DNA from: Maribellus sp. YY47
GTDB lineage: Bacteria; Bacteroidota; Bacteroidia; Bacteroidales; Prolixibacteraceae
Reading direction: 5' to 3'
NCBI RefSeq assembly: GCF_023111095.1
Contig: NZ_JALGYW010000023.1
Coordinates: 1 to 64,000, forward strand
Length of the DNA: 64,000 nt
The notes under the pieces were generated by a model. It saw only the letters and a program-made list of their open reading frames with translations. It did not search any database and had not been told where the DNA came from. Both the position numbers and the translations under genes were made by a program. How positions within the stretch are numbered: position 1 is the stretch's first letter; every line of letters starts with the position of its first letter. Shown here piece after piece: positions 7,067 through 64,000 of this stretch.

Positions 7067-7125
7067 TTTCTTCTTAAATGTATTATTATCTGCTAAGCTC
7101 GCCAATTGTTTCGTTTGGCAGCGGT

Positions 7126-7701: not shown

Positions 7702-7749
7702 TGATCTTTTTTAGTTGTTTAGTTATTTATATGTCTGTGATTAACGGTT

Positions 7750-7830: not shown

Positions 7831-7887
7831 TTTAATTTTTTATTCTTCAATTGTTTCATTTTTTGTAGTTTTCCCCTTAGCATAAAC

Positions 7888-9156: not shown

Positions 9157-9169
9157 TCAGTTCATCCGA

Positions 9170-9285
9170 AAGATGAAATAAGGAATAAGATATCAGAAAA
9201 TATTGGCTCCAATTATTCAGTTCCCCGACACTTTTTATCGCCATTTCTTATTCTCCAGCTTTTTCAAATTTGTGCTTAGAGGGTA
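9170..9285. repeat. Dispersed intergenic repeat, copy C
   Basis: The segment holds AGGAATAAGATATCAGAAAATATTGGCTC and CCATTTCTTATTCTCC, matching copy A at 3860-4092 in order and spacing. It ends just before the DUF3124 lipoprotein gene. Confidence 0.6.
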
Positions 9286-9305
9286 GCTTTTTAACGGGCT
9301 CCTGG

Positions 9306-9815
9306 CTACTCGTAAATTCTCACACCCCGCGACGAAAACGAAACGCCCTGTTCGCCGTAGGTAGAAATCATTACTGCCTCGATCAAAGGCGGATTTTTCT
9401 TGTCCTGTGCGGCCCAGTCGAACACAAAATTGGCGCCCGAGCCCCCTTCGCGGTCGGCTTCGGCAATCACAATCTCAACGGTTTCCATGGGTAAAACATA
9501 AATCGGCGCTTTAATGTATTCCCTGATTTTGTCGCCTTTGGTATTGTAGTAATCACCCCGCAGAATAAAAACAGTATCGGCCGGCGAAACATTGCGGATG
9601 CTGACGGTAACTGTCAGGTCGTAAGTGCGGCGTTCGTGCACGTGGTAAATGTGCGAGTAAATGGGCAGGTAGGTTTTGCCGTGTTCCAGGCTGTCGGGAA
9701 TGGGCAAGGCAGCTTCCCGTCCCGAGATTTTGTATTCTTTCGGAATGGCTGCTTTTTCCCGGTTACAGGAAACAAGCGCCAACACCAGCGCGAAACAGGC
9801 AAGCAGTTGTCTCAT
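9306..9815 (-). CDS. DUF3124 family lipoprotein
   Basis: A 169-residue protein with a lipoprotein signal (MRQLLACFALVLALVSC, lipobox LVSC). The mature part fits DUF3124, an immunoglobulin-like beta domain: YLPIYSHIYHVHERRTYDLTVTVSIRN near residue 50 and GANFVFDW near 130. The function of this family is unknown. It is probably attached to the inner face of the outer membrane. It follows the ZIP transporter gene on the same strand, with a possible weak terminator between them. Confidence 0.83.
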   Translation of the reverse strand: MRQLLACFALVLALVSCNREKAAIPKEYKISGREAALPIPDSLEHGKTYLPIYSHIYHVHERRTYDLTVTVSIRNVSPADTVFILRGDYYNTKGDKIREYIKAPIYVLPMETVEIVIAEADREGGSGANFVFDWAAQDKKNPPLIEAVMISTYGEQGVSFSSRGVRIYE

Positions 9816-9892
9816 ACGATCACTTTTTAGTGTAAAACGATGCGTTTCCTACAAATCTACTAAATCCGGAAATGAAAAGGATCAAAACCGAT

Positions 9893-9930
9893 CAGAAAAA
9901 GAATGGCTGCAGCGCACATACAATAGCCAT
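9893..9930 (-). terminator. Possible terminator after the ZIP gene
   Basis: On the minus strand a short stem ATGGCT / AGCCAT with a large loop is followed by TTCTTTTT. It is weak. Confidence 0.4.
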
Positions 9931-9937
9931 CGGCTTG

Positions 9938-10753
9938 CTATCCCAGGGCCACATCGAGCAGCATCATGGTGGCAAAGCCGATAATGGCGCCCACGGTGGA
10001 AAGGTCGGTTTCGTTGCCCGATTGCGACTCGGGGATCAGTTCTTCGACCACCACAAAAATCATGGCTCCGGCAGCAAACGAAAGCGCGTAGGGCAGCAAA
10101 GGCTCGATGCTTAAAACCAGGTAAGCTCCCAGCACGCCGGCAATGGGTTCCACCACGCCCGACATCTGACCGTAATTAAAGGCTTTCAGACGCGAGAATC
10201 CTTCGCGCCGCAAAGGAATCGACACCGCCGCGCCTTCGGGAAAGTTTTGCAAACCGATACCAATGGCCAGCGCAATAGCTCCGGCCAGCATTCCGGCATC
10301 GGGGTTATTGGCCAGCGCACCAAACGCCACACCCACCGCCAGTCCTTCGGGAATATTATGCAAGGTGATGGCCAGCACGAGCAACACACTTCTTTTCCAC
10401 GAAGTTTCAATTCCTTCCGCTTTTTCGCGCGGTAATCCCAGGTGAAGGTGAGGCAGAATTTTATCGACCGCCAAAAGAAAGGCACCTCCTGCCAAAAAGC
10501 CAACTACGGCAGGTACCCAGGGCGTTGTTCCGCTTTCTTCTGCCATTTTAATGGCCGGATTCAGCAGCGACCAGAAACTGGCTGCGATCATTACCCCCGA
10601 GGCAAAACCCAGCATCGAGTTGAGTATTTTTTTCCTGATGGTTTTAAAGAAAAACACCATTCCCGCTCCCAGTGCGGTTAAAAACCAGGTGAACAAGGTT
10701 GCTCCGAGAGCCAGTAAAATCGGATTATAATCCAGGAGTTTTTCGATCCACAT
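9938..10753 (-). CDS. ZIP family divalent metal transporter (ZupT-like)
   Basis: A 271-residue integral membrane protein with about eight hydrophobic helices. The ZIP metal-binding signature HNIPEGLAVGVAFG (about residue 137) and the helix V motif FPEGAAVSIP (about 171) are both intact. A His-containing variable loop (LPHLHLG) lies between helices 3 and 4. ZIP proteins move zinc, and often iron, manganese or cobalt, into the cytoplasm. The start is a standard ATG. The upstream neighbour is the alpha-galactosidase gene, separated by a terminator, so it is likely transcribed independently. Confidence 0.92.
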   Translation of the reverse strand: MWIEKLLDYNPILLALGATLFTWFLTALGAGMVFFFKTIRKKILNSMLGFASGVMIAASFWSLLNPAIKMAEESGTTPWVPAVVGFLAGGAFLLAVDKILPHLHLGLPREKAEGIETSWKRSVLLVLAITLHNIPEGLAVGVAFGALANNPDAGMLAGAIALAIGIGLQNFPEGAAVSIPLRREGFSRLKAFNYGQMSGVVEPIAGVLGAYLVLSIEPLLPYALSFAAGAMIFVVVEELIPESQSGNETDLSTVGAIIGFATMMLLDVALG

Positions 10754-10783
10754 CGTTTCGTCTCTTAAAAATTAATAGCACAC

Positions 10784-10820
10784 AAAAATAGCGGAGATCT
10801 TCTTTGCTCCGATCTCCGCA
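10784..10820 (-). terminator. Terminator after the alpha-galactosidase gene
   Basis: A 9-bp perfect inverted repeat GCGGAGATC / GATCTCCGC is followed on the minus strand by TATTTTTG. Confidence 0.8.
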
Positions 10821-10841
10821 TCAGGTTCTTCCGGCATTCTT

Positions 10842-13037
10842 TTATTTAACTTCATTTACCTCCAGAATAACACTCGCATTTCGCTGGCTCATGTTCGGAT
10901 TAACACCTACTTTCATGAGGAAATCACCCGAATAGGTTTTCGTTGAATCAATCCGCGATCTTGCACCCGGATACACATTCAACTCTTTTACGGTGTATTT
11001 TTTATTTCCGTCGAGACCGGCAAATTTAACCGGCAACCTCGAAGCGGTTTCCATGTAGCGGAAATTCACCAGGTAGTTGAACACCACTGCACGACTTTTA
11101 TCCTTGCTGACATACATCAGCGCAGCAAAATTGTTTTCGTACGGATTTACCAAACGATAGAGATCGCCGTGCCAAACCACGTCTTTAAACGAGTTGTAAT
11201 TCTGAACGGCTTCCTGCGCAAACTGCAAGTCTTTTTCGTTGAGCTCATGCGCCACAATATCAAAACCAAGCTTGCCCATGCTGGCAACATCCACGCGGTA
11301 TTTTAGCGGAAGCTTGCTCCAGTCGGTAACGTGGCAATCGGTAACAATCGACGGAAAGAAATACGAGTAATTCCACTGCATGAACACGCGTTCCAGCGGA
11401 TCGGTATCGTCGCTTGGCCAGAATTCAGTAAAGTATTTGAACAGCTCGTAATCGCCACGGCCGCCGCCGCCCGAACACATCATGATCGGGACTTCTGGGT
11501 ATTTCTCACGAACGCGTTCCATTACTTTGTATAAGCCTTTGGTATATTCGATGTAAAGGTGCGTTTGCGGAATGTTTTTCTTTTCGAGATAAGCAGAATG
11601 CGCGTTGTAGATCACCGAGTTGCAATCCCACTTAATAAACGCCAGTTCCGGACTGTCGGTAAACAACTTGTCGACAATGCCAAATACAAAATCCTGTACT
11701 TCGGGATTGGACAGATCGAGCACCAGCTGGTTTCTGAAATATTTTTCGGGGCGCTCGGGTTGCCGAATCACCCAATCCAGATGATTCTCGTACAATTCAC
11801 TTTTGGGATTCACCATTTCCGGCTCAATCCAGATACCGAATTTGATGCCTTCTTTGGTGGCTTCCGATACCAAATGACCGATTCCGTTCGGAAGCTTAGC
11901 TTTGTTTTCCTGCCAGTCGCCCAACCCGGCATTGTCGCTATTTCGTGGGTATTTGTTGGCAAACCAGCCGTCGTCGAGCAAAAACAGATCAACACCCAAA
12001 CTCTTTGCATCTTTAAAAAGCGCGGTGATTTTGTTTTCATCAAAATCGAAATACGTGGCTTCCCAGTTGTTCAGCAAAGTCAAACGCTCGCCGTTTCCAT
12101 CCAGCACGCGGTAATCTCTTGCCCAACTGTGCAGGTTGCGGCTTGCTTCGCCCGTTCCCTTGTGCGAAACCACGTACACCAGCGAAGGTGTTTTAAAGGT
12201 TTCTCCGGGCTGCAAAGTATATTCCGAGGCAAAAGGATTTATTCCTGCAATAAAACGCAGGTTATCGTGCGAATCGATCTCGAAATCGTAGCGAAAATTC
12301 GAACTCCAGGCCAACTGTCCCAAAACAACAGTACCGGTATTCTCAGCTGCTTCGTTATCCAACGAAAGAATAAAATTGGGCGACTGCAACAAATAGGCGC
12401 GTGTGCCGAGTTTGCTATCGATCGATTTGATTCCGCGGGTAAGTTTCTCCTCGTTCCGCTGCATTTCCTTCGCCCACTCGTTTCCGTAAGTGGTCAGGTA
12501 AAAATCGTTTCCGGTAAAAAACAGGTTGGCAGAGGCAAACTTTTTCAGCACAACTGCCTTTTTCTGGTTGTGCTCAATTTCAGTCCACTGTTCAATCACA
12601 TTCTCATCGGTCCAGGCTTTGTAAAAAAGCTTTACCTCGAACTGATACAGCGCATCTTCCAGGTTGATCACCGTAAGCATTGCATTGTCATCAGTCTTTT
12701 CCTGCGTATGACTAACATATTTCAACTCCAACGACGTATTCCCGTCGGATTGCACCACCTCAATGGCCGGTTCCACCAGGTTCCAGGTTCCGGCGCTTGT
12801 GTAAGCAGCATTGTAAATTCCGGCGTTGTTATCCCGCAAATTAAACTGGGAGGCCACGTCCTTGTATTCAGCTTCGTTCTGAAGAGGTTCGCCAAAATAC
12901 ACGGTATTCAGACGCCCTTCCCGCGAAGGGTGCAACAACATCAGGTTACTTTTTGTGGAGATGGGGACAATTACATCCTGCGCTTGCAGACCCACTGCAA
13001 ATAAAGCACAGAACATGATAAGCAGTATTCTGTTCAT
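10842..13037 (-). CDS. Alpha-galactosidase, glycoside hydrolase family 36
   Basis: A 731-residue secreted enzyme: signal peptide MNRILLIMFCALFAVGLQAQ, an N-terminal beta-sandwich (about 25-310), a (beta/alpha)8 barrel and a C-terminal beta domain. The barrel carries the GH36 nucleophile motif KWDCNS (Asp near residue 470) and the acid/base region WPSDDTDP (near 541). The CSGGGGRGDYELF segment before it is also family-typical. It hydrolyses terminal alpha-1,6-galactosides such as melibiose, raffinose or galactomannan side chains. No SusC/SusD or regulator gene is near, so it is not part of a classical utilisation locus here. Confidence 0.95.
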   Translation of the reverse strand: MNRILLIMFCALFAVGLQAQDVIVPISTKSNLMLLHPSREGRLNTVYFGEPLQNEAEYKDVASQFNLRDNNAGIYNAAYTSAGTWNLVEPAIEVVQSDGNTSLELKYVSHTQEKTDDNAMLTVINLEDALYQFEVKLFYKAWTDENVIEQWTEIEHNQKKAVVLKKFASANLFFTGNDFYLTTYGNEWAKEMQRNEEKLTRGIKSIDSKLGTRAYLLQSPNFILSLDNEAAENTGTVVLGQLAWSSNFRYDFEIDSHDNLRFIAGINPFASEYTLQPGETFKTPSLVYVVSHKGTGEASRNLHSWARDYRVLDGNGERLTLLNNWEATYFDFDENKITALFKDAKSLGVDLFLLDDGWFANKYPRNSDNAGLGDWQENKAKLPNGIGHLVSEATKEGIKFGIWIEPEMVNPKSELYENHLDWVIRQPERPEKYFRNQLVLDLSNPEVQDFVFGIVDKLFTDSPELAFIKWDCNSVIYNAHSAYLEKKNIPQTHLYIEYTKGLYKVMERVREKYPEVPIMMCSGGGGRGDYELFKYFTEFWPSDDTDPLERVFMQWNYSYFFPSIVTDCHVTDWSKLPLKYRVDVASMGKLGFDIVAHELNEKDLQFAQEAVQNYNSFKDVVWHGDLYRLVNPYENNFAALMYVSKDKSRAVVFNYLVNFRYMETASRLPVKFAGLDGNKKYTVKELNVYPGARSRIDSTKTYSGDFLMKVGVNPNMSQRNASVILEVNEVK

Positions 13038-13107
13038 AGTATTAGATTTGATCGTTTATGACACACGAAGATAGAAAAGAAAGCAGCGATTAAAAAGATT
13101 CGCGCCG

Positions 13108-13137
13108 GATAAAAGAAGGATTGATTGAGCAATCCTC
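13108..13137 (-). terminator. Terminator after the TPR cytochrome gene
   Basis: On the minus strand GGATTG-CTCAAT-CAATCC is followed by TTCTTTTAT, just past the stop codon at 13159. Confidence 0.6.
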
Positions 13138-13158
13138 TTAACCCGGGATCATACCGTT

Positions 13159-15516
13159 TTACATGCTTTGCTGAAGCGCCGAAATTGCCTGCTGCAAAGC
13201 GGTTTTATCCTGCTCCGAAAGTCTGTCAGTTTTTAGCGCGTCGGCATACAACTTTATTGCGCCGTCTTTGTTCCCGTCTTTCAAATAAATATCGGACAGA
13301 AACTGAACGTTCCTCAAATCACCGGGATTCAGTGCAAGTGCTTTTTTCAGGTTGCTTATAGCAGCTGCCTTTTGTCCGTTCTGCAGCTGGTAGAACGCCA
13401 GCGTGTAAACGATGCTGCCATCCTCCGGTCTTATTTTATAGGCGTTTTCGGCATATTCGATGGCCTGTTTCAGATCGCCGCGCTGTGCTACAATTACACT
13501 CAGGTTTTTGGCAGCCACGGCCTGCTCTTTCGGGTTGGCTTCATACGCGGTTTTCAATGCTTTTTCAGCTTCGTCCATTTTTCCCTGCTCGGCCATTAAA
13601 AGCCCCAGGTTGAGGTTGGCCGCTTCGTTGCGGGGATCGAACTTAATGACGTTGCGCAGGTTCTCTTCTGCTTTCGCCGGGTTGCCAATGTAAGAATACA
13701 GTACACTGCTGTTGATTAAAGGCAAAATGGATTCGGGATACAAACGGATGGCCGTTTCGTAAGCCCCCAGTGCCGCCTGTACATCTCCCTTATTTTGATG
13801 ATAAAGCCCGAGGTTGTAATGATTGCTCCAGTTGTCGAGCCGCGAAGTCATCGACGTTACATATTCTTTCTCGGCAGCAGCAATTATGTTTTTCTGATCG
13901 GCGCTAAACAGGTCTTCCGGAAAAGTTAAAATGGCATTTGCCGCCTGTATGCGCACCAAACGAATATCATCCTGACAAGCTTTTAACAGTGCAGCTTTTG
14001 TCTTGTCGTTCACCATTCCGCCCAGGCCATAAGCTGCCGACGAACGTACCAGTTCCGATGGGTTGTTCAGCGCATCCATCAATACCGCTGCCTTTGATTC
14101 ATCGGGGTAATTATTCAATAGTCGAATCAGAGAGTTGGCTACCACATCGTCGGTTTCGGGATTCCGAATCAGCGCGAACATCTTGTCCACATTCTTCCAT
14201 TCCAGTTCGCGGGCTTCCTTTATCAACTGTGCCCATTTCAATGTTTCTTCCTGGTAATTTCCGTTTTTACGCGCTTTTACAATTTTATTGGCCCACTCGG
14301 GCGATTTATCTTTATGACACTGGTTGCAGGCGTTGGGCGATCCAAAGCGGATGGTAGCCTCGGGCATGGGTGGCCTGAACGAGTGATCGCTGCGCAGGAA
14401 ATGCCCCACAAATTCGCGCTTGGGCATGTGGCAACTCAAACAAGTCAATCCTGCTGATGCCGGATGCCCGGTGTGTTCGGCCAAATCATCATTACGTTTA
14501 CCATGGCATTTCAAACAGGCTTGATTTGGATCATCCTTAAAGCGGTTACGACCACTGGAGGTGTGGCAGGAAACACAGTGTAATTCACTTTTTTCGGTAC
14601 AAGAATTCATCATCCAGCCCGTGAGCGTATAGTTTTCACCCAAATCGCGCCCGTCGGGATAAAAATCACGGTCTTCGAGCGTGGTCACGTTGTAATTATC
14701 AAAAAACTTGTCGCCCGGCATATAACTGGGTGTAATGGGTTGCATTTTGGAATGACAGGTAGCACAGGCATCGTTGTTCTGTTCTTTTGTAAACACCGAT
14801 GTACTTATGAGGCCCAGCTTTTTAGCCTTTTCGCCTTCTTTCAGGTTCTTGAAAATACGAACATGTTCGCCTGCCGGTCCGTGACAGGTCTCGCAGTTAA
14901 TCCCCGGTTCTTTCCAGGTGGTATGGTAAGTGTCGGTTTCCAAATCGAAATTGGTACTTAGCTGACTGATATGACAACTGTAACACCCGGTATTAAACGC
15001 AAACTGATCGTCTTTCCAGGGCAAGGCCTCATCTGCGGGAGAATTGTCGTTAAAATGACGAACACCCGACTCAGGGTAGTTAAACCATTTTTTTGCATTG
15101 GCATCGTACGCCAGGGGAATATTCTGAAGTTTACCTTTTTCAAACGGTGTCAGAAAACAGTACACATTATGTCCGCCCATGGCCCAGATTACATCGTACG
15201 TGGCAACCAATTCATTACCCTTGCGCTCGTACATGACCATGGTTGAATCTTTAAACTCCACCTGAAACAGGTTCCCTTCCATGTCAATCGGCTGGCTGTC
15301 GGGCAACTGATGCTTTGCAATAAATTCGGCATTTACGGGCATCATCGCCTGCGCATGGTACGACGGCGACCACAGCTCATAAAACTTCTCGTGGCATTCT
15401 TTACAACTCTGCGAGCCCATAAATTCCTCATCGGAATTGGGTTGCGCACCTCTTTGTGTGCATGAGAACAGGGTAAATACAGTGATTACGCCCACTATCC
15501 AATTTTGCCGGTTCAT
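13159..15516 (-). CDS. Eight-heme cytochrome c with HEAT and TPR repeats, lipoprotein
   Basis: I prefer the ATG at 15516, preceded by AGAGAAG, to a GTG eight codons upstream. It gives a 785-residue protein with a lipoprotein signal ending in LFSC. Eight CxxCH heme motifs lie in the N-terminal half: SCKECH, CYSCH, CETCH, CATCH, CVSCH, CLKCH, CLSCH and CNQCH. A HEAT-like helical section follows (about 430-560), then five or more TPR units up to the C-terminus. This cytochrome-plus-scaffold design is found in envelope proteins of Bacteroidota and Planctomycetota. A role in periplasmic electron transfer with a protein-docking scaffold is likely, but its partners are unknown. Its upstream neighbour is a sulfatase gene. 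Confidence 0.88.
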   Translation of the reverse strand: MNRQNWIVGVITVFTLFSCTQRGAQPNSDEEFMGSQSCKECHEKFYELWSPSYHAQAMMPVNAEFIAKHQLPDSQPIDMEGNLFQVEFKDSTMVMYERKGNELVATYDVIWAMGGHNVYCFLTPFEKGKLQNIPLAYDANAKKWFNYPESGVRHFNDNSPADEALPWKDDQFAFNTGCYSCHISQLSTNFDLETDTYHTTWKEPGINCETCHGPAGEHVRIFKNLKEGEKAKKLGLISTSVFTKEQNNDACATCHSKMQPITPSYMPGDKFFDNYNVTTLEDRDFYPDGRDLGENYTLTGWMMNSCTEKSELHCVSCHTSSGRNRFKDDPNQACLKCHGKRNDDLAEHTGHPASAGLTCLSCHMPKREFVGHFLRSDHSFRPPMPEATIRFGSPNACNQCHKDKSPEWANKIVKARKNGNYQEETLKWAQLIKEARELEWKNVDKMFALIRNPETDDVVANSLIRLLNNYPDESKAAVLMDALNNPSELVRSSAAYGLGGMVNDKTKAALLKACQDDIRLVRIQAANAILTFPEDLFSADQKNIIAAAEKEYVTSMTSRLDNWSNHYNLGLYHQNKGDVQAALGAYETAIRLYPESILPLINSSVLYSYIGNPAKAEENLRNVIKFDPRNEAANLNLGLLMAEQGKMDEAEKALKTAYEANPKEQAVAAKNLSVIVAQRGDLKQAIEYAENAYKIRPEDGSIVYTLAFYQLQNGQKAAAISNLKKALALNPGDLRNVQFLSDIYLKDGNKDGAIKLYADALKTDRLSEQDKTALQQAISALQQSM

Positions 15517-15613
15517 TCTTCTCTTTTTGGTTTCTGACACAGCAAATATTGCATTTTCTGGTGAAAGAATGAATTTAATTTAGCTGCCGCACTGTCGCTT
15601 AGCCGATTCCTTT

Positions 15614-17533
15614 TTATTCGGCAGGAACGTCCAGCATCCCCCATTTCGTGAGTAAAGTCCGGCAGGCTCTTGTATCGTATCCGCTTTCTCCAGCTGTTGC
15701 TCCGGTGGTATTGGATTGATAACGTGCCTGTACCAATTGCTGCAGTTTGGGTGACGATGCCTCCATCGCGCTCACACTGTTCAATGCAAATGTCCGGTCG
15801 ACTGATGTATAGCTGACAGTATCCGCCATAATGCGTTCATAGGTCGACAGCGCTGTCTCTTTGTCGCCTGAACGGTATAATGTTTCAGCCGCCAGCGTGG
15901 CAACCGCACCCGATTTATCCTGAGTGGCTACCCTGATCGCCTCCAGGTAGGGTTCCACCTCATCGCGATGAATCAGTAATCCAAGCACTCCCCAGTAACG
16001 TATGGCGCTGTTGTCGCTTTTCAGGTTTTCGAGATAAGCTGCCAGAAAATCATCGCCTGCGGTGGTGGCCAGTTGTGCCGCCTCCAACAGCTGTTCAAAC
16101 GGACAGGCATCAGAACGCATGTAATCGTACAAAGCTCCGTCGCCGGCAAATTCGGCATATTCCGGTTCCGGGATCAATCCCACATCTTTTACCTCGCGCA
16201 TCCAGCGGGTAAGCTCCTTTCGCATTCGGTTCAGCACATCGGCATAGGCAGGCTCATTGGCCAGATTATTGATTTCCCAGGGATCATTTTCGGTATCATA
16301 AAGTTCTTCCAAGGGTTTTTCAAGAAAAAAGCGGCTTTGAACTTCGTTGGTTTCACCTGCTTTAAAAGCATCTTCCCAAGCCTGAGCGGATGGCGCTTTA
16401 AAAAGATAGTCGATGTGTTGCATCGAAATCCGGAAGGGCATAAAATTGCGGATGTACCGATATTTCTGATCGCGCACGGCACGCACCATGTCGTAGCACT
16501 CATCCATCCGCTGACGTGTCATATAGGCATATTCGGGATCTTCTGTTTTTTGATCGCCCAGAAAAGCATCTCCCTGTAAATATTCAGGGACTTCAACTCC
16601 TGCAATACTCAAAAATGTGGGTATCAAATCGACAAAACTAACGATACGATCAACAGCTTCGCCGGGCCGGGCAGGCCAGAGCTTTTTATACTTTTCAGGA
16701 ATTCGGATGATAAAAGGAACACGCGTTCCCGTTTCATAAACATAACGCTTGCTGCGTGCCAAAACACCGCCATGGTCGCCGTAATAAATCACAATGGTAT
16801 TTTCAGCTTCACCACTTTTTTCCAGTTCCTTTAGTAGCTCACCAATCTCAGCATCCATTTGCTCGTTACGGTCGTAATATTGCGCCCAATCGTGGCGGAT
16901 AGCCGGCAAATCGGGATGATAGGGAGCAATTTCCACTTTCGCGGGATCGTGCTTTAATTCGCTTGCCGGAATTTGATTGTGAATCATACTTTCATGCGTT
17001 GTGGTATTGCTGAAAACTGCGAAAAACGGCTGCCCGGGAGCCCGGTTTTTATACGTTGCTTTTCGGCTGCGATCGTCCCAGATCGCATTCCAGTCGCCCG
17101 AATAATTGTAATCGGTTTTTACGTTGTTGGTACAGTAATACCCGGCTTCCCTGAAATATTCAGGATAGGTTTTCACAATTTCCGACTTGGCATATTTACT
17201 ACGCATGTGCTCGTTGCCGTTAGAAGCTGCATAAACTCCCGTAAGAATTGTATTTCTGGCGGGAGCACAAACCGGACAATTGGCGAAGGCATGTGTATAC
17301 ATGAAGCCTTCGGAAGCCAGCTTGTCGAGATTAGGAGTAGTGGCCATCTCGTTACCGTAACAACCCAGGAAATAAGCGCTGTTATCTTCCGAAGTAATCA
17401 TTAAAATATTAGGAGGTGGAAGCTCCGCTTTTTGATCTGCGCTGCACGAAACAAGATACAGTGTCATTAAGAACAATAATTGCAGAAGTAGAAAGTTTGG
17501 AGCAAAACAGCAGGTTGTTGGTTTACGTTTCAT
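15614..17533 (-). CDS. S1-type sulfatase, lipoprotein
   Basis: The ATG at 17533 is chosen because it starts a lipoprotein signal (lipobox LVSC, Cys about residue 30). Longer frames upstream run into the divergent gene. The sulfatase domain begins with NILMITSEDNS and carries the activation motif C-A-P-A-R (Cys about 89), the Cys-type site converted to formylglycine by an anaerobic or aerobic maturase. GDHGGVLARSKRYVYETGTRVPF, split around residues 250-275, is the second metal and substrate region. A C-terminal helical, HEAT-like segment (about 520-610) is extra. It removes sulfate esters from polysaccharides or other exported substrates. No maturase gene is in the window. Confidence 0.92.
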   Translation of the reverse strand: MKRKPTTCCFAPNFLLLQLLFLMTLYLVSCSADQKAELPPPNILMITSEDNSAYFLGCYGNEMATTPNLDKLASEGFMYTHAFANCPVCAPARNTILTGVYAASNGNEHMRSKYAKSEIVKTYPEYFREAGYYCTNNVKTDYNYSGDWNAIWDDRSRKATYKNRAPGQPFFAVFSNTTTHESMIHNQIPASELKHDPAKVEIAPYHPDLPAIRHDWAQYYDRNEQMDAEIGELLKELEKSGEAENTIVIYYGDHGGVLARSKRYVYETGTRVPFIIRIPEKYKKLWPARPGEAVDRIVSFVDLIPTFLSIAGVEVPEYLQGDAFLGDQKTEDPEYAYMTRQRMDECYDMVRAVRDQKYRYIRNFMPFRISMQHIDYLFKAPSAQAWEDAFKAGETNEVQSRFFLEKPLEELYDTENDPWEINNLANEPAYADVLNRMRKELTRWMREVKDVGLIPEPEYAEFAGDGALYDYMRSDACPFEQLLEAAQLATTAGDDFLAAYLENLKSDNSAIRYWGVLGLLIHRDEVEPYLEAIRVATQDKSGAVATLAAETLYRSGDKETALSTYERIMADTVSYTSVDRTFALNSVSAMEASSPKLQQLVQARYQSNTTGATAGESGYDTRACRTLLTKWGMLDVPAE

Positions 17534-56550: not shown

Positions 56551-56805
56551 TCAACACCGCCCCCTGGCACAAGGACTGTTGGTCAGAAAAAATCCGAGGA
56601 AAGCTCCCACCCCAACACTCTGTACTATCTCGCCTGTTGGCATAACATCCATGCTTCTTCCTTCAGAAACATAATAAAATATGAATCCACCAACGGCACC
56701 AACTGCCATATAAATAAGCGTTTTCCGAAAATGCGGATTCTTCAGTTTTCGCTGAAACCAGTTTCCTTCTTCTTTTATTTCGAGCTTCTTGAATTCCATA
56801 TTCAT
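56551..56805 (-). CDS. Small membrane protein with two helices, unknown
   Basis: An 84-residue protein. A charged start (EFKKLEIKEEGNWFQRKLKNPHFRK) precedes two hydrophobic segments (about 29-46 and 62-76). It ends in CARGRC with two Cys. I recognise no family. It has its own consensus promoter at 56823-56852 and a perfect terminator, so it is a separate unit just downstream of the cytochrome operon. Confidence 0.72.
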   Translation of the reverse strand: MNMEFKKLEIKEEGNWFQRKLKNPHFRKTLIYMAVGAVGGFIFYYVSEGRSMDVMPTGEIVQSVGVGAFLGFFLTNSPCARGRC

Positions 56806-56885: not shown

Positions 56886-57620
56886 TTACGAAACCTTTTT
56901 TGTTACCAGGGTTCCGTCTTCCATAATTACATCGTAAAAATAGCCGGCACCAAAGTCTTTCTCGAGCGTAAGTTTTCCTTTAAATGTAACTTCATCACCA
57001 ACTTCCACTTCGGCCTGTGTAGTAATGGTTAAATCAAATTTACCCTCGCTCGAAGTTCCATCCTGGATGTGTACCCAGTTTTTGCCCATAACCTGCTCGT
57101 TCACTTTTACCACTACCCCGCGAATTTCAAATTCCTGGTTGCTAAATTCAGCGCGTTTGGCAAAAACTTCAGATACCGTAAGTTCCCCTTCAGCTTTTTC
57201 CAGTTCAACCTCGGCACTTTTTGCAGCTACTTTACCGCTATGTCCGGCAGGCATTTCAGCTGCCATCGGTTGCTGCTGGCTTAAAGGAGTTTTGCTGATC
57301 TGGTTTACGAAATAAATTACATCGAACGTACGATCGATCTCCTTGCTGTGGAAATTGGTCATCTGAAGCGCTTCATCGTAATAAAATACATCACCCGGTT
57401 TTGCTTCCTGATGACTAACAGCTACCCAGCGATCTGCCATGTTTTCCTTTACGTTCAGATAGGTATAGGTACTTCCCTGAACCACTTCGGTTACTTCAAA
57501 AACATTTTGATTGGCCTGCGCCACACTTTGCGCCTGCTGCGGATTTTTATTTTGAACGCATGAACTCGCAACAAAAGTTGCCAATACGATAAACGCGATT
57601 AGTCTTAGTTTGTGCATCAT
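56886..57620 (-). CDS. OB-fold lipoprotein at the end of the cytochrome operon
   Basis: A 244-residue lipoprotein (signal ending in VASSC). The C-terminal half (about 145-240) is an OB-fold-like domain with EFEIRGVVVKVNEQVMGKNWVHIQDG, split near residue 170, and GDEVTFKGKLTLEKDFGAGYFYDV. This resembles the tRNA_anti-like / DUF4920-type periplasmic proteins often found with cytochrome genes. The first half (about 25-115) is beta-rich and of unknown fold. It follows the barrel gene after 32 nt. It could help assemble or dock the cytochromes; this is inference. Confidence 0.78.
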   Translation of the reverse strand: MMHKLRLIAFIVLATFVASSCVQNKNPQQAQSVAQANQNVFEVTEVVQGSTYTYLNVKENMADRWVAVSHQEAKPGDVFYYDEALQMTNFHSKEIDRTFDVIYFVNQISKTPLSQQQPMAAEMPAGHSGKVAAKSAEVELEKAEGELTVSEVFAKRAEFSNQEFEIRGVVVKVNEQVMGKNWVHIQDGTSSEGKFDLTITTQAEVEVGDEVTFKGKLTLEKDFGAGYFYDVIMEDGTLVTKKVS

Positions 57621-57652
57621 TTTTTTAATTTATTCTGTTTACAATAATTGAT

Positions 57653-59272
57653 TCAAAACTTTTTTCTCAGGCTTAAATATAAGCGATTATAAATATCTTC
57701 TTTCTGAACTGTTGCTTCAAAATTAACAGACAAAGAGATTTTTTTGTTGAAACGACAGGTAAAATCCAGTTCACTAATATTTTGGGTAAGCGAAGACAGG
57801 GAATTTACATAGTCAAATTTCGCGTGGCGGTAATGCAGCATTACACTCATATTTTGCAGGAAATCTTTGGTCAGGCGGGCTCCGTAAACCTGTCCGTCGA
57901 GGTAGGCCGTTTGCATCAGATTTGAAGAAACGTTCAGCGATGCACCCAACGCTGGAATACGCGACCACGTTGCAAAAGCGTTGTAGGTATTGGTATTCCG
58001 CGGATCTTCTTTTGAAAACCGTGTTCCAGCCGAAGCTCCCACCATAAGATAATCCAAGGGCCGGTAATTGATCCGTCCTCTAATCCCCTGGCGGCTGGCC
58101 TGTGTTAAAACCTCATCGGCATAATTCCGGAAAGTTTCGTAGTAGATCACATTTTTCCGGTTATCGTAAGAACCCGACAGCGATACTTTTCGCGAAAATC
58201 GGTAATTCAACGAAAAATAAAAACCGGTAAGACTCAATGAATTCGAGGGTTGATCATTTTCCAGTTTGTACAGATCGAGCTCGACCGATGTAAACACATT
58301 CAGGTTTTTCGCCAACGAACTGGTGTGTTGAAAGTACAGGAAACGCCGATCAATGTTTCCCGAATTTCGCTGCTCGAAAAAGGCCAGCGACGACTGCACA
58401 TAGCCATTGCTTGTTTTTTGACTGTGCCCCAGGTAAGCGCCGTATTCAAAAAGATCAGTGTTAAATCCGTAATCCAGGTAATCGGGTCGTGAGCCAGCAA
58501 CTACTCCAACAAACAGACTTTTAAAAGCATATTCCAACTGAACTCCGTCAATCGCACCAACATTGGCAATCCGGGGATTGATCTTTCGCCCCAACCAAAC
58601 CGAAGTCTGCTTATTTACATCGTATTTTACAGCCAGTGCGTAGATTTTCAATGCATCGTTCAGATTATCCCTCACAACCTGCCACTCGTGCAATTTATGC
58701 GTAAACGAAACATAGCTTTCAAAGGATATTTTTGAATAACCGATGTTGGAATAATTCGACGAAAAAGTATAGCGAAACCGATGCGAATCGTTTCCCTGCT
58801 TACTAAAATTGGAATACGATGAAAGCATTAACCTGCCTGAAAAATTGGGAGTATTCATCGTTTCCCGACTGATTTGTGGCGCAGTAAGTACTTCTTCGTT
58901 TACGTCTTTTTCAGGAACCGCCACTTCGGAAATCGTTTTTTGAGGAACGGTCATGATTTCTTTTAATCGGGCAAAAACGGGATCGGAAACCTTTATGGCT
59001 GTTTCAGCAATTGCCTTACACAAACAAGATATGGAGGATTTATGCTGAACCAGAAGTGCCGGGGAAAGACCTTCTGCATTTCGGATAAAAAGCGTATCTC
59101 CGTTTTCAATGCCTTCCGTGCTTTCAAATCTCACATAAATATTCTCTCCCGAAAGGTAGGATACACGCCCTTCTGTCAAATCCCTTGATTCCTGGGCTTC
59201 GACTGCGAATGTCCCTGAAATTAAAACGAACAGAAACATCAGCCAACTGATATGTTTTCCCTGATCAATCAT
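57653..59272 (-). CDS. Outer-membrane beta-barrel (candidate cytochrome-conduit porin)
   Basis: The product has 539 residues from the ATG at 59272, which starts a signal peptide (MIDQGKHISWLMFLFVLISGTFAVEAQ) and overlaps the upstream cytochrome stop by 8 nt. A small N-terminal domain (about 27-90) contains a CLC pair near residue 82. A long barrel (about 145-539) of alternating strands ends in LYLSLRKKF, with a C-terminal aromatic residue typical of outer-membrane proteins. Its place right after two multiheme cytochromes suggests an MtrB-like role as the porin that lets electrons cross the outer membrane. Sequence similarity to MtrB cannot be judged here. Confidence 0.75.
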   Translation of the reverse strand: MIDQGKHISWLMFLFVLISGTFAVEAQESRDLTEGRVSYLSGENIYVRFESTEGIENGDTLFIRNAEGLSPALLVQHKSSISCLCKAIAETAIKVSDPVFARLKEIMTVPQKTISEVAVPEKDVNEEVLTAPQISRETMNTPNFSGRLMLSSYSNFSKQGNDSHRFRYTFSSNYSNIGYSKISFESYVSFTHKLHEWQVVRDNLNDALKIYALAVKYDVNKQTSVWLGRKINPRIANVGAIDGVQLEYAFKSLFVGVVAGSRPDYLDYGFNTDLFEYGAYLGHSQKTSNGYVQSSLAFFEQRNSGNIDRRFLYFQHTSSLAKNLNVFTSVELDLYKLENDQPSNSLSLTGFYFSLNYRFSRKVSLSGSYDNRKNVIYYETFRNYADEVLTQASRQGIRGRINYRPLDYLMVGASAGTRFSKEDPRNTNTYNAFATWSRIPALGASLNVSSNLMQTAYLDGQVYGARLTKDFLQNMSVMLHYRHAKFDYVNSLSSLTQNISELDFTCRFNKKISLSVNFEATVQKEDIYNRLYLSLRKKF

Positions 59273-60296
59273 CGCCGGCAAATCCATTGGGGTGACAGGT
59301 ATAACAACTGGTAGCCGTGTACGTATAGTCATTCACTCCACCGTGGCGGCTGTCCGTTTCAGCCTGGTTATGTTCGTGACAGTCGGTACAACTGAAAACC
59401 GCGTACGAAGCAGGCTGCGTATGGCAATCTGCACAATTGTTCCACTCTCCGCGGTGCTTGCCCGAATAAATCGGAAAATAGTAATCATCGTGAATATCAA
59501 ATTTAGCCGGCTTCCAATCGGGATCGGTGGTGTGGCAATCGGTACAATGCGTCGTAAATCCTGCGTTGTTGTGGGCTGGATTGGTAGCCGATGCAAAATC
59601 ATTTTGGTGACAGCTGTAACAATCTGTTGACACCGGCTCAAACACTCCGTTTGTATGACAGGCGGCACAATTATTCAGTTCATGCCCTTTTGTAAGCGGA
59701 AAAAAGTCGTGGTTAAATCCCTGCGAAGTCCAGAGAAAAGCGTCGATTCTGTGACATTCCATACAGTCGGTTGATAACCCGGATTGCTGATGATTGGGAT
59801 TGGTGGTAGCCAGGTAATCCTGACGGTGACAATCGATACATTCCACTCCCAGCGGCTGAAACTCCAGGTTCGAAACGGCAGTATGACAATCTGAGCAATC
59901 GACCGTATTATGCGCTCCCAACAGGGGGAATCGACTGCCTTGATGCAACTCCGTGATGTTGGTAACCAGCCACGATTTTGGGGTGTGGCATCTGGCACAA
60001 TCCATCCCAACCGTTGTATTGTGCATATCGGTGTGGCAATCCACACAGTTGGACTTCGCCTGCGAAAAAACCAGCGAAGTATGGCACGATTTGCAGTCAG
60101 TGGTTTGATGCTCCCCTTCAAGCCGGAAAGTAGTTTGATCGTGACTGAATTTTGCCGTTGAGGCGGAGAAGATCCATCCTTCCGTAGAATGGCAATCCAG
60201 GCAATCAAATTTTAGATCATCGCCGTGCGGACTGTCCTGTGCATTTAGGCCGCTAACTGCCAGCAGTATTCCCAGTATTAATGACATCTTGCGCAT
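59265..60296 (-). CDS. Thirteen-heme cytochrome c
   Basis: A 343-residue exported protein (signal MRKMSLILGILLAVSGLNAQ). I count 13 CxxCH motifs: CLDCH, CKSCH, CVDCH, CARCH, CSDCH, CIDCH, CMECH, CAACH, CYSCH, CTDCH, CADCH, CTDCH and CYTCH. Several modules share the pattern FSH-x6-F-x-L-x-G-x-H-x5-CxxCH, whose His residues are candidate distal heme ligands. It overlaps the upstream 20-heme gene by 19 nt and the barrel gene by 8 nt, so translation is coupled. It likely shuttles electrons in the periplasm or across the outer membrane. Confidence 0.9.
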   Translation of the reverse strand: MRKMSLILGILLAVSGLNAQDSPHGDDLKFDCLDCHSTEGWIFSASTAKFSHDQTTFRLEGEHQTTDCKSCHTSLVFSQAKSNCVDCHTDMHNTTVGMDCARCHTPKSWLVTNITELHQGSRFPLLGAHNTVDCSDCHTAVSNLEFQPLGVECIDCHRQDYLATTNPNHQQSGLSTDCMECHRIDAFLWTSQGFNHDFFPLTKGHELNNCAACHTNGVFEPVSTDCYSCHQNDFASATNPAHNNAGFTTHCTDCHTTDPDWKPAKFDIHDDYYFPIYSGKHRGEWNNCADCHTQPASYAVFSCTDCHEHNQAETDSRHGGVNDYTYTATSCYTCHPNGFAGDD

Positions 60297-61873
60297 GATA
60301 TGTCTTCAAATTTGTAAACGATGTAATTCCGGATCAAATCATCGGTCGGTTGGTGGCAGGCTGCACATTGCAGGCCGCTGTGTTTTCCGTCGAGTTTAAA
60401 CCGTGCATTGTCATGATTGAATTTGTCGGGCGACCAGTTATTAAAGGTATGGCACCGCGCACAATCATTTTTTCCCAGAGCTTCAAATTGATTGAAATGA
60501 ATATCCTCGTGGCAGTTCTCGCAGCTTTCAGCCAGGTTCGAGAATTGCTGTTTTACAACTCCGTTATCCTGCCTGAAATGACAATCGCGACAACCAACCG
60601 AAGTATGTTTCCCGCTTAATTTAAACGGCGTTTGATCGTGGTTGAACGTAATCCATTTCCAGCTTTCAACAGAATGACACGAACGGCATTCTGAATCCGG
60701 CATATATTTTTCAGGCAAAGCATTTTTGTGAACGTTTTCGTGGCAATCCACACAGCGTTTAGACGGAAGTTTGAAATTCCACTTTTCACCGGCTTTATGA
60801 CAGGCCAAACAAGGCGTAGCCAGGTGTGCGCCTTCGAGTTTAAATCCAGCCTGATTGTGTTGTTCAATGGAAAAAGAAGCAGGCGAAAACCCATCTACAG
60901 AGTGACATGCCGAACAGTCGGGCGAAACTCCATTTTTCTGAAATTGCTTTTCATGGAAATCGCTGTGGCAATCCGTGCATCGGTTGTATTTCAATGCACG
61001 TGTATAACTTCCGCTCGTGTGGCACTTCTTACAATCCACCGCAACATGTTTTCCTTCCAAAGGAAAGTCAGTCAGGTTGTGATTAAAGCCTTCGGTTGCT
61101 TTGGTTTGTGTGAAGGAAAATTCGTTGTGACATTTCCGGCAATCGTTGCCAAATTTATTCCGATGTATATCCTCGTGGCAGTTGGTACAATTTTCGAACT
61201 TCACTCCTGCAAACTGTTGGAAGTTTTTGCCGTTCCTCAGTTCTGTTAAATGGCATTTGGCGCAATCAACCGTCCGATGTTTTCCAACGAGCTGAAACCT
61301 TGTTTTAGAATGATCAAAACCGGTTGCCGGGCGAAAGGCATCCTGGTTGTGGCACGATGTGCAGTTGGTGGAAAGCGTATTCTGATGCACATCTTCGTGA
61401 CAATCCACACAGCTTGTTCCCAGCCCAAGATAAGTTCCTCCCTGCTTTTTCTGAGATATAAGATTCCGGATCAGCTCCGCCTTGTGGCAATCGTTGCAAT
61501 TGATGGTACCATGTTTTCCTTTCAGCTTAAAACCCGCCAGCTGATGGTCAAACTTCTCAGCGTCAAAGCGAATCAATTTGTAATCTTTGCCAAGGTGTTC
61601 ACCGTGACAGGAAGCACACTTCTGCCCTTTAACTTCGGCTGAGGCATGATAACCTTTCTTTTGATCCATCAGGGTTTTTATTTCTTTGTGGCATTCCAAA
61701 CATTTCGATGTGGTTTCCTTTTCACCCAGAATATGACACTGTGTACATTTCTTCAATCCTTCGAGATGAGCATGAACCTGGCTCAACTCGCCGGGTGAAA
61801 TCTGCGCCAAAAGCATCTGGCCGGTCAGCATTAAACCAGTCAGAAGCAGCACATATTTCAGCAATCTTTTCAT
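60278..61873 (-). CDS. Twenty-heme cytochrome c
   Basis: A 531-residue exported protein (signal MKRLLKYVLLLTGLMLTGQMLLAQ). I count 20 CxxCH sites, from CTQCH near residue 43 to CARCH as the last five residues. At least six repeats follow F-[ND]-H-x4-F-x-L-x-G-K-H-x5-CxxCH. Between them are CVDCHEDVH-type units. The protein has hardly any non-heme part, so it resembles a molecular wire. The gene overlaps the next cytochrome gene by 19 nt and is spaced 4 nt after the FAD oxidoreductase gene. Known MtrA-type cytochromes have about ten hemes, so this is larger. Confidence 0.92.
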   Translation of the reverse strand: MKRLLKYVLLLTGLMLTGQMLLAQISPGELSQVHAHLEGLKKCTQCHILGEKETTSKCLECHKEIKTLMDQKKGYHASAEVKGQKCASCHGEHLGKDYKLIRFDAEKFDHQLAGFKLKGKHGTINCNDCHKAELIRNLISQKKQGGTYLGLGTSCVDCHEDVHQNTLSTNCTSCHNQDAFRPATGFDHSKTRFQLVGKHRTVDCAKCHLTELRNGKNFQQFAGVKFENCTNCHEDIHRNKFGNDCRKCHNEFSFTQTKATEGFNHNLTDFPLEGKHVAVDCKKCHTSGSYTRALKYNRCTDCHSDFHEKQFQKNGVSPDCSACHSVDGFSPASFSIEQHNQAGFKLEGAHLATPCLACHKAGEKWNFKLPSKRCVDCHENVHKNALPEKYMPDSECRSCHSVESWKWITFNHDQTPFKLSGKHTSVGCRDCHFRQDNGVVKQQFSNLAESCENCHEDIHFNQFEALGKNDCARCHTFNNWSPDKFNHDNARFKLDGKHSGLQCAACHQPTDDLIRNYIVYKFEDISCARCH

Positions 61874-61877
61874 ATCA

Positions 61878-63215
61878 TCAGCGTCGTTCGTGTTTCAGAA
61901 TGGCCTCCCCAAACTTCCGGGTGATCTCAATTCCTGCATTTTTCAGAAACTCTGTGGGTAATTCGCCACCTGCAAAAATGTACACCAGGTCGTTCTTCAT
62001 TTCCATCGCTTTACCGTCCTCAAACTGAAGTGAAACATCTGTCTCGCCAATCGATGTAACATTTGAATTCAACAGCACTTCCAGTTTCTTTTCTGAAATA
62101 GCTTTTCCCAACAGCTCATTATTCTTCGATTTCAATCTAGAGAACGTTTCCTTTCTGTAAGATAAAGTGACTCGGTTTTGCGGGGCAAGCAACAGCGCCG
62201 ACTCAACGGCAGAATCGCCACCACCTACTACCAGGATATCTTTGTCGGAAACAAATTCAGGTTCGAGCAAACGATAATATACCTTAGGCAAATCTTCACC
62301 CGGAACATTTAGTTTTCGAGGTGTGCCACGGCGCCCAATCGCCAGCAGCACTTTTTGCGCGGTGTATTCTTCTCCATTGTGGCAAAGCACTTTAAAATGA
62401 CCATTTTGGATTTCGATCTTATCCACCTTTTTATTTTCATGAATGCTGATCCCGTTATCGGCAGTCACTTTTTCCCACAAATCCAGCAACTCGTTTTTAT
62501 CAGTTTCAAATAACTTGACCTTCCCGTGAAGCGGCAGGTCCATGGGTGAAGTCATCACGATTTTTGCGCGGGGAAAGGAAGCAACTGTTCCTCCCAGCGT
62601 ATCCTGTTCCAAAGTCACTGTTTTCAGTTTCAGACGACGGGCTTCAAGCGTGGCAGAAATGCCTGCGGGACCTGCTCCAACCACCACCAGATCGTATTCG
62701 GCTTTGCTTTCATACTGAATTCCCTTTGCTAGGTTATTGACAGCCTGCCTGCCCTGCTCCACCGCATTTCTGATCAGTCCCATTCCGCCCATCTCGCCGG
62801 CGATAAAAATTCCTTTTACATTCGATTCGAAATATTGGTTAACATGCGGCAGGTCGACTCCCCGTTTCTCGGTCCCGAGAAACAGCGAAATCGCCTGTGT
62901 GGGACAGGCATGAAAACAGGCGCCGTGCCCAACACAGCGGCTGGCGTTGATCACCGTTGCCTTTCCATTGCGAATGCCCAAAATATCGTGTTCGGGACAG
63001 GCACGGATACAGGCACCGCTCTGAATACACGAATTTACATCCACCACCGGATGAAGCGAAACGGGCTCGTGCAGCCCCTCTTCTTTTGCCACACGGATCT
63101 TCTCCTCTACCCGCTTTGATTCACGCCTCAGCTTTCGAATGTAGATGTAAAGTACACCGATCAAAAAAAAGGCAACTCCTCCGTAAATCAATATTTTCTC
63201 CCAGAAACTTTCCAT
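61878..63215 (-). CDS. Membrane-anchored ferredoxin-like/FAD oxidoreductase, permuted
   Basis: A 445-residue protein with an N-terminal transmembrane helix (about 9-27) and a ferredoxin-like domain (about 57-110). Each of its two cluster motifs has only three Cys: C63-x5-C69-x3-C73-P and C94-x5-C100-x3-C104-P. Next comes GIFIAGEMGGMGLIRNAVEQGRQAV (about 134-158), the FAD-closing motif normally at the end of thioredoxin reductase-like enzymes. Only then follow VVVGAGPAG (about 177-185) and the NADPH-domain motif VVGGGDSAVES (near 335). The order is thus circularly permuted. It probably moves electrons between NAD(P)H, FeS clusters and the cytochrome-b-like neighbour. Confidence 0.83.
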   Translation of the reverse strand: MESFWEKILIYGGVAFFLIGVLYIYIRKLRRESKRVEEKIRVAKEEGLHEPVSLHPVVDVNSCIQSGACIRACPEHDILGIRNGKATVINASRCVGHGACFHACPTQAISLFLGTEKRGVDLPHVNQYFESNVKGIFIAGEMGGMGLIRNAVEQGRQAVNNLAKGIQYESKAEYDLVVVGAGPAGISATLEARRLKLKTVTLEQDTLGGTVASFPRAKIVMTSPMDLPLHGKVKLFETDKNELLDLWEKVTADNGISIHENKKVDKIEIQNGHFKVLCHNGEEYTAQKVLLAIGRRGTPRKLNVPGEDLPKVYYRLLEPEFVSDKDILVVGGGDSAVESALLLAPQNRVTLSYRKETFSRLKSKNNELLGKAISEKKLEVLLNSNVTSIGETDVSLQFEDGKAMEMKNDLVYIFAGGELPTEFLKNAGIEITRKFGEAILKHERR

Positions 63216-63218
63216 CCT

Positions 63219-64000
63219 TTAAAAAATCCATTTGTAGCCAAACAACACAGCAACCATCACGTGAATGATCATGATCACCAGCATCACCAGCGCAAAGGGA
63301 AGGTGCGCCACGTGCCAGTATCTTAGAAAATTCTGCATCGACGACAACCAAGCAATCCTCCGGTTCAAAATGATCTTTGACTTGAAAATACGAACCGCAC
63401 TCCGAAGGTGTTTCCCTTTAATGTTTTTCGTTTTGAGTTCCTTCCTGAACTGCCTCACCAGTTTTTGTTCAAATACAAATCTCCGGCAAATCCGTACCAG
63501 GTAATTGACTCCCTCCTTTTCTCCTGCTTTGGCCACTGCCGCATTCATTGACGTAATTATGTGAGCGTCAATTTGGTGTTTGTTTTTTAACCCGGAAATA
63601 AGTTCCGATTCCATTGTGTTCAACTCATTCAAACTGAGCTCTCGCCCTTCGATGGTACGTGGTATCTGCAGGTAAATAAACCGTCCGATTACACCACTGA
63701 GAACCACCGCGACCATACTCCAAAAACTAACTGCTACCAGGCCGCCAAACTTAAAGGAAGTATGAAACAGCACCAGGATCGGCCCCAACGTGCACAAAAA
63801 AATATGGAATTCGAGCCAGTTACGAAGTACGCCCAGCCGCGATAATCTGCGGAAACGTTTCCGGGACATGTAGCCAAAAACACCTATGATCATAAAAGCC
63901 GAGCCCACGATACCAATTCCGTGTCCGATCAGGCCGGTCGGTTTCAACCACTCGTGTCGTGGATGAACAGGCCGCTCGTGCAGCGGAGTCAGGTAATAAC
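63219..64000 (-). CDS. Cytochrome-b-like membrane protein (5' part cut by the window)
   Basis: The frame stays open to the right edge. A start at 63947 would be TTG, and the codons upstream read YYLTPLHERPVHPRHEWL, so the true start is outside. The visible 260 residues have about four transmembrane helices: near 20-45, 55-75, 80-105 and a C-terminal pair with HVAHLPFALVMLVIMIIHVMVAVLF. The His residues in the helices (for example HIFLCTLGPILVLFHT and HVMVAV) are candidate ligands for b-type heme. A soluble loop lies between (about 110-200). It precedes the oxidoreductase gene by 3 nt. It is probably the quinone- or membrane-side partner. Confidence 0.78.
   Translation of the reverse strand, partial: YYLTPLHERPVHPRHEWLKPTGLIGHGIGIVGSAFMIIGVFGYMSRKRFRRLSRLGVLRNWLEFHIFLCTLGPILVLFHTSFKFGGLVAVSFWSMVAVVLSGVIGRFIYLQIPRTIEGRELSLNELNTMESELISGLKNKHQIDAHIITSMNAAVAKAGEKEGVNYLVRICRRFVFEQKLVRQFRKELKTKNIKGKHLRSAVRIFKSKIILNRRIAWLSSMQNFLRYWHVAHLPFALVMLVIMIIHVMVAVLFGYKWIF

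Follow-up and report, generated by a model that had tools for sequence, protein, structure and literature searches.

A candidate PCC3-type electron conduit of Bacteroidota with a flavin enzyme gene and a second cytochrome that varies in triheme steps

The window analyzed here is a stretch of 64,000 nucleotides from Maribellus sp. YY47 (part of contig C16; genome size 5.04 Mb). Near its end it carries a minus-strand operon of six genes, which encode an inner-membrane b-type cytochrome (inner-membrane protein, IMP), a membrane-anchored iron-sulfur (FeS)/FAD oxidoreductase, two c-type cytochromes with 20 and 13 hemes, an outer-membrane beta-barrel and a lipoprotein. We consider it fairly probable that this operon encodes a PCC3-type conduit which spans the entire envelope, includes an input enzyme of its own, exports electrons fed in by NAD(P)H and ends in an outer wire whose length can evolve. 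The gene set is conserved among relatives, and the second cytochrome changes its length in units of three hemes, mostly on a common ten-heme head.

Conservation of the core genes

Across the phylum, 40 of the 395 sampled genomes had the FeS/FAD protein (E ≤ 1e-60), at least one of them (G140) through a protein that is longer and less similar. In the class of genome G035 it was detected in 72 of 294 genomes (E ≤ 1e-100). Of 198 genomes in the order to which the window belongs, 24 had the 20-heme protein (E ≤ 1e-60). From these three groups 30, 40 and 20 loci were inspected, respectively. The genes for the IMP, the FeS/FAD protein, both cytochromes and the barrel are referred to as core genes.

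An earlier note on this DNA had proposed a check for conserved synteny. Indeed, all five core genes co-occurred in 17 of the 20 loci picked by the 20-heme protein alone, in 17 of the 30 loci chosen by the FeS/FAD protein, in each of seven named relatives and, by manual row count, in 32 of 41 loci of a later set. The three misses among the 20-heme-chosen loci were all located at contig ends. Among the 13 misses of the FeS/FAD-chosen loci, the first cytochrome was cut by the end of the stretch in nine, three were located at contig ends, and a single one (L079) had no detectable IMP gene. Within the 20-heme-chosen loci the FeS/FAD gene was present in all 20 and the barrel gene in 19, with the one miss at a contig end.

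The usual order was IMP, FeS/FAD, 20-heme cytochrome, second cytochrome and barrel. In several families the IMP gene was followed by the cytochromes, the barrel and finally the FeS/FAD gene. The distance between the IMP and FeS/FAD genes, determined in 45 loci, was below 100 nt in 32, 610-623 nt in nine and 169 nt in one; the remaining three had the other order.

Triheme steps in the second cytochrome

The second cytochrome of the window (59265..60296, minus strand) has a signal peptide and consists of a ten-heme head and one triheme unit. With 13 hemes it is a short copy, since the heme number among relatives ranges from 10 to 70. Pfam C7 matches were found in four stretches of the protein.

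In 63 of 76 second cytochromes a common ten-heme head was present, with the nine motif spacings 36, 16, 16, 34, 19, 25, 32, 16 and 25, each at most three residues off. A single constant head in every second cytochrome was therefore rejected; the 13 deviating proteins were all six ten-heme forms and seven others. The head was followed by repeat units with spacings of about 31-37, 15-16 and 23-28 residues. Consistently, the spacings autocorrelated at lag 3 with a mean r of 0.93 in the 32 proteins that have 22 or more hemes.

Heme numbers were compared in two sets: set 1 of 45 second cytochromes, the one of the window included, and set 2 of 31 complete copies (30 from 40 later regions and one from Emticicia). 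Counting CX2CH motifs, the number equaled 1 modulo 3 in 44/45 proteins of set 1 and 16/31 of set 2 (60/76 together). With CX2-4CH motifs this applied to 45/45 and 28/31, respectively (73/76 together), and a CX3CH or CX4CH at a grid position accounted for 12 of the 15 CX2CH misses in set 2. The wider definition was adopted after inspection of these misses; the same one is used in PMC7399161 and PMC10734462. Here and below, statements on published work refer to the available parts of the cited papers. The three remaining misses were L150, in which the Cys of one motif is replaced, L168, whose end is off the grid, and L169 with ambiguous bases near the end. Left out of the counts were L101 (with a different protein as its last cytochrome), cut second cytochromes and loci without exactly two cytochromes. 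The minimum heme number for a cytochrome varied by analysis and was at least 5 (resulting in 43/44 proteins with 1 modulo 3), at least 8, or at least 4 (31 of the 41 later loci kept).

Binomial p values for this regularity ignore relatedness, so that sister pairs provide the fairer test. In a tree of the FeS/FAD proteins, 13 of 22 sister pairs differed in heme number, and all 13 did so by a multiple of three (3 to 18 hemes). The loci L163 and L088, which belong to one genus and whose second cytochromes have 31 and 43 hemes, respectively, are much alike in their flanks; one block gained or lost makes the difference of 12 hemes. In the DNA, tandem repeats with a period of 210-219 bp, or of twice to four times this length, were detected with 69-93% match in seven of ten genes and in none of L009, L012 and L077.

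The triheme quantisation illustrates how natural protein wires gain length. Because the head is extended by such units, the reach of the outer wire would be an evolvable length. Variable heme numbers in homologous large cytochromes have been described for Burkholderiales and Chloroflexi (PMC7399161). In natural pairs such as L163 and L088 conduction and length become directly comparable. If the proposed placement is true, close relatives with near-identical flanks and different unit numbers would provide a length series for the reach and speed of conduction in a single protein wire.

The 20-heme cytochrome and the proposed placement of both cytochromes

The first cytochrome (60278..61873, minus strand) is a basic protein with a signal peptide and Cytochrome_C7 matches in six stretches. 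Its family profile matched the solved multiheme cytochrome 3ov0 (E 3e-7), which we take to be GSU1996, a Geobacter polymer of triheme (c7) domains. The heme number of this protein is nearly fixed: 20 CXXCH motifs were counted in 73 of 85 complete copies and 23, one step of three more, in five. The ten-heme MtrA has a length of about 104 Å (PMC4245776); therefore 20 hemes would extend over about 20 nm, which could bridge the periplasm. That a large PCC3 cytochrome bridges the periplasm is an idea already in print (PMC10734462).

Compared to the first, the second cytochrome had a lower isoelectric point in 39 of 39 loci and a higher content of Thr, Ser, Ala and Gly (T/S/A/G) in 38 of 39. The lower isoelectric point is due to fewer Lys and Arg residues and not to more Asp and Glu. 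T/S/A/G-richness is a reported mark of extracellular PCC3 cytochromes (PMC5566968). We thus propose the 20-heme protein as a periplasm-spanning wire and the second cytochrome as a putative extracellular wire.

The inner-membrane protein and the FeS/FAD enzyme

The IMP (63219..64000, minus strand, continuing beyond the window to 64088 or 64145) has five hydrophobic helices. It carries WX3HX13H at residues 110 and 277 and SGXXG at residue 150, numbered according to the 308-aa open reading frame (ORF). Among 45 sequences of this protein two WX3HX13H motifs were found in 41, two HX13H motifs in 44 and SGXXG in all; this combination of helices and motifs is the one that defines the IMP of PCC3 and PCC4 (PMC5566968). 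A search of its profile against PDB sequences gave nothing at E ≤ 1.

The FeS/FAD protein (61878..63215, minus strand) starts with an N-terminal helix; it contains two ferredoxin motifs, together with a domain for FAD and NAD(P) that resembles YpdA and thioredoxin reductase. Its nearest solved sequence was YpdA/Bdr (E 5e-25), and in the best segments it is 95% and 93% identical to its counterparts in Maribellus sp. CM-23 and M. luteus, respectively. In 58 aligned sequences, the one of the window included, the second ferredoxin motif reads CxxHxxCxxxCP with an invariant His, and GGGD of the second Rossmann motif was present throughout. The Cys at the second position of the first ferredoxin motif was found in only 11/58 sequences; the remaining 47 carried Ser, Thr or Ala. 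These ferredoxin motifs possibly reflect an unusual FeS ligation, and the conserved CxxHxxCxxxCP may serve as a marker of such a ferredoxin site.

A plasmid copy and plasmid modules with another flavin enzyme

Seven plasmid records were opened, taken from 15 records of the IMP search and 38 of the 20-heme search. One of them, plasmid pEMTOL02 of Emticicia oligotrophica (L132, 10899-23483), carried the complete six-gene set, with cytochromes of 23 and 40 hemes and a cytochrome c assembly gene immediately upstream. The complete set on a plasmid suggests that the conduit is able to move between replicons.

The other six regions, from Alteromonas, Methylophaga, Pontibacter, Bradyrhizobium, Sphingomonas and Spirosoma (L133-L138), all showed the order FAD/NAD(P)/2Fe-2S enzyme, IMP-like protein and seven-heme cytochrome. 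The enzyme is composed of the domains FAD_binding_6, NAD_binding_1 and Fer2 and has a fold unlike that of the FeS/FAD enzyme of the window. Two HX13H motifs are present in the IMP-like proteins. By tblastn, similarity to the IMP was found for L133 (E 2e-8), L134 (E 3e-8) and L135 (E 4e-3); the likeness of L136-L138 rests on motif and position, since these were not among the IMP matches. Two unrelated flavin-FeS enzymes thus occur beside such membrane proteins, which favours a feeding by NAD(P)H. Annotated copper genes lie near three of these modules and hydrogenase genes near one.

The barrel

The barrel gene spans 57653..59272 on the minus strand, with its longest ORF starting at 59332. The predicted structure, with a mean predicted local distance difference test score (pLDDT) of 65, shows a beta domain at the N-terminus and a barrel in which 22 strands were counted manually. 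No Pfam family was matched at E ≤ 0.1, and the profile of the barrel gave only chance-like matches to PDB sequences.

Proposed electron path and alternative explanations

From the order and type of the components we infer the following path. NAD(P)H, or perhaps ferredoxin, would reduce the FAD of the membrane-anchored FeS/FAD protein at the cytoplasmic side, and its FeS clusters would pass the electrons to two b hemes of the five-helix IMP. After crossing the inner membrane by way of these hemes, the electrons would enter the 20-heme cytochrome as the bridge through the periplasm, and a pore of the barrel would give them access to the second cytochrome, placed at the surface of the outer membrane or beyond it. 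The final acceptor may be a mineral, humic substances or another cell; the chain of the window would include 33 hemes. More specifically, and as a tentative proposal that may well fail in one of its parts, the system could represent a quinone-independent, NAD(P)H-driven "split NOX", combined with a nearly fixed 20-heme rod set by the width of the periplasm and a length ratchet of the outer wire in triheme units (10 to 70 hemes, about 10 to 70 nm).

Several observations weigh against this path. At its entry, use of NAD(P)H by the FeS/FAD protein is suggested by the fold, and the deviant ferredoxin motifs (Cys lost in 47/58, His in 58/58) bear on the type of FeS cluster. Four of the 41 later loci (L181, L182, L183 and L185) had the FeS/FAD protein but no conduit gene within the stretch retrieved. 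The stretches of L182 and L183 end early, at contig ends; the other two, L181 and L185, hint at another use of the enzyme, which is therefore not restricted to the conduit. The published model of PCC3 has the IMP exchanging electrons with quinones, and an uptake of electrons in iron oxidisers (PMC5566968). Additionally, L079 had no detectable IMP gene though the stretch extends upstream, and an insert of 610-623 nt separates the IMP and FeS/FAD genes in nine of 45 loci (L075, L076, L082 and L084-L089). In those inserts that were printed it holds an ORF of about 200 aa, possibly an extra subunit. Each of the six IMP-like proteins on the plasmids carries only one full WX3HX13H, L136 is without SGXXG, and L136-L138 were absent from the IMP matches at E ≤ 0.01 and were retrieved by the 20-heme search. 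Towards the outer end, the AlphaFold model of the 20-heme protein reached a pLDDT of 37 and was discarded. A Foldseek comparison of the middling barrel model with the PDB resulted in generic barrels (ushers, OprD-type porins and others; query-normalised TM 0.22-0.41), and no match named MtrB was among the 50 structure matches listed. Furthermore, a crude lipobox pattern was found in 0/46 second and 1/47 first cytochromes, which leaves the surface attachment without an explanation.

Among the alternatives, the one closest to our reading retains the conduit but lets the IMP exchange electrons with quinones, with the FeS/FAD protein as a side branch; inward flow from an extracellular donor would be possible as well. 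We regard this as unlikely, though it follows what He et al. (PMC5566968) proposed for PCC3 in iron oxidisers. The four conduit-free loci fit this alternative, and Mtr-type conduits are said to be reversible (PMC8258643, PMC10734462). Against it, and for the link to cytoplasmic NAD(P)H, speak the FeS/FAD gene, which occurred in every one of the 20 loci chosen without it and mostly within 100 nt of the IMP gene, and the plasmid modules, in which similar membrane proteins adjoin an unrelated NAD(P)H-flavin-FeS enzyme.

A periplasmic electron store or reductase, in which neither cytochrome leaves the periplasm and the barrel serves as a channel of its own without relation to them, appears improbable. 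Forms with 10-20 hemes would fit within the periplasm, but wires of 40-70 hemes should exceed its usual width. Threading of a cytochrome through the barrel is putative in view of the two models and the generic barrel matches, and the missing lipobox would be in line with a periplasmic location; however, the barrel gene accompanies the 20-heme gene in all but the one locus at a contig end, and the composition of the two cytochromes is split like that of extracellular and periplasmic PCC3 cytochromes. Membership in a characterised pathway (MtrCAB, DmsEF, OmbB-OmaB-OmcB, the Ext selenite cluster or a nitrite or tetrathionate reductase) can practically be dismissed, since the weak sub-threshold matches to the DmsE, ExtN, ExtO and HmcA profiles all scored far below the curated cut-offs (OmbB-type porins were outside the direct comparison), the barrel is without a Pfam family and an NrfA/NrfH-like pair is located elsewhere in the genome (L144, read by eye).

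Extent of the operon and accessory genes

The six minus-strand ORFs described in the earlier note were all located in place, and the counts of 20 and 13 CXXCH motifs were reproduced. The ORF coordinates also yield the overlap of 19 nt and the three gaps (3, 4 and 32 nt). The overlap of 8 nt given there holds if the barrel begins at its third ATG (59272); with the longest ORF, up to 59332, the overlap is 68 nt.

The window cuts off the IMP gene, whose longest ORF on the contig reaches 64145 (308 aa). The proteins of all five aligned relatives start at Met20 of this ORF, and therefore the gene probably extends from 63219 to 64088 (289 aa). Since the next long ORF upstream on the contig is on the opposite strand, the IMP gene is probably the first gene of the operon.

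The lipoprotein gene (56886..57620, minus strand) encodes a GW/SH3-like N-terminal part and, by eye, an OB-like C-terminal part. The protein of the window matched no Pfam family above the cut-off, so that the label "OB-fold" of the earlier note is a reading of the sequence by eye; the Emticicia relative has a GW domain above the cut-off. The gene was present in 6/20 of the 20-heme-chosen, 1/30 of the FeS/FAD-chosen and 3/7 of the named loci and on the Emticicia plasmid. It is an accessory gene and absent from most relatives.

Downstream of it, a possible seventh gene (56551..56805, minus strand) of uncertain association encodes a small membrane protein of 84 aa which ends in CARGRC; an ORF of 82 aa is found in the same position in two Maribellus relatives. 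A second multiheme cluster of the same genome (L139, C4:103000-121000, at 6998-16491) includes ORFs with 6, 7, 19, 6 and 4 CXXCH motifs and a membrane protein and is, as far as read, not of the window type.

Comparison with known systems

The logic of inner membrane, periplasmic cytochrome, barrel and outer cytochrome is shared with MtrCAB, MtoAB, PioAB and DmsEF. These systems use cytochromes of ten hemes, and their barrel is larger, with 28 strands predicted (PMC4245776). The DmsE profile TIGR03508 scored 46 bits with the 20-heme and 21 bits with the 13-heme protein at a cut-off of 192, and together with the barrel, which has no Pfam family, this led us to reject a membership in MtrCAB/DmsEF. 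Likewise, the Ext selenite/tellurite cluster was rejected with 35.9 and 35.3 bits for ExtN and ExtO at a cut-off of 200. Tandem triheme units also form the Geobacter c7 polymers, of which 3ov0 is an example. In the present conduit operon, relatives differ widely in how many units they carry, and most have them on a common ten-heme head. With NOX and ferric reductases, and with the plasmid modules, the operon shares the combination of a flavin enzyme and a di-b-heme-like membrane protein which would take electrons across the inner membrane. The modules differ by an FNR-type enzyme instead of the YpdA-like fold with 4Fe-4S-type motifs and by having no annotated barrel between or beside the three genes in the stretches viewed.

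Putative new porin-cytochrome clusters of Bacteroidetes without homology to known types have been described from metagenome-assembled genomes of lakes (PMC6344600) and of an anode (Bacteroidetes_1, PMC8258643). In the available parts of these reports neither an FeS/FAD partner nor a triheme rule is mentioned; the comparison is by description, and some of the clusters may be this system. A Bacteroidota PCC3 with the present gene set, or length variation in triheme steps, was not found in the mainly freely accessible literature, including the available parts of PMC11475568 and PMC12977616. Within this literature, two points are new: a Bacteroidota form that regularly has an FeS/FAD partner, and the rule of triheme steps.

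The closest known system is PCC3, which was described in 2017 from Proteobacteria (He et al., PMC5566968) and called "functionally unverified" in 2025 (PMC12442390). Both systems have a large cytochrome assigned to the periplasm, with a median of 21 hemes in PCC3 and 21, 24 or 27 in Gallionellaceae (PMC5566968; pangenome, PMC10734462), a large and variable one assigned to the outside of the cell, a porin and repeats in the cytochromes. The features by which a PCC3 is recognized are found in the window: the IMP of about 300 aa with five helices, two WX3HX13H (TM3 and TM5) and SGXXG (TM4), a cytochrome of about 21 hemes (here 20), a repeat-bearing T/S/A/G-rich cytochrome and a barrel gene, with putative locations for both cytochromes. 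The differences are as follows. The published PCC3 consists of four genes without a flavin enzyme, whereas here the FeS/FAD gene is regular and a lipoprotein gene is present in some loci. The second cytochrome of PCC3 is listed with 10-18 and 26-35 hemes, compared to the series 10, 13, 16 and so on in our study, and its barrel with up to 42 predicted strands, compared to 22.

The earlier note had read the operon as a trans-envelope conduit and knew no named system with this gene set. Synteny and component types support the conduit well, with a barrel model that is middling. The second statement has to be narrowed, because four of the six parts match the PCC3 architecture; it persists insofar as PCC3 was described from Proteobacteria and without an FeS/FAD enzyme. 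Based on the architecture and the IMP motifs we would rather regard the operon as a putative variant than as a plain member of PCC3, since the FeS/FAD gene was present in all 20 loci chosen without it. This would extend the PCC3-type conduit to Bacteroidota and provide a candidate cytoplasmic electron donor which is absent from the published PCC3 model.

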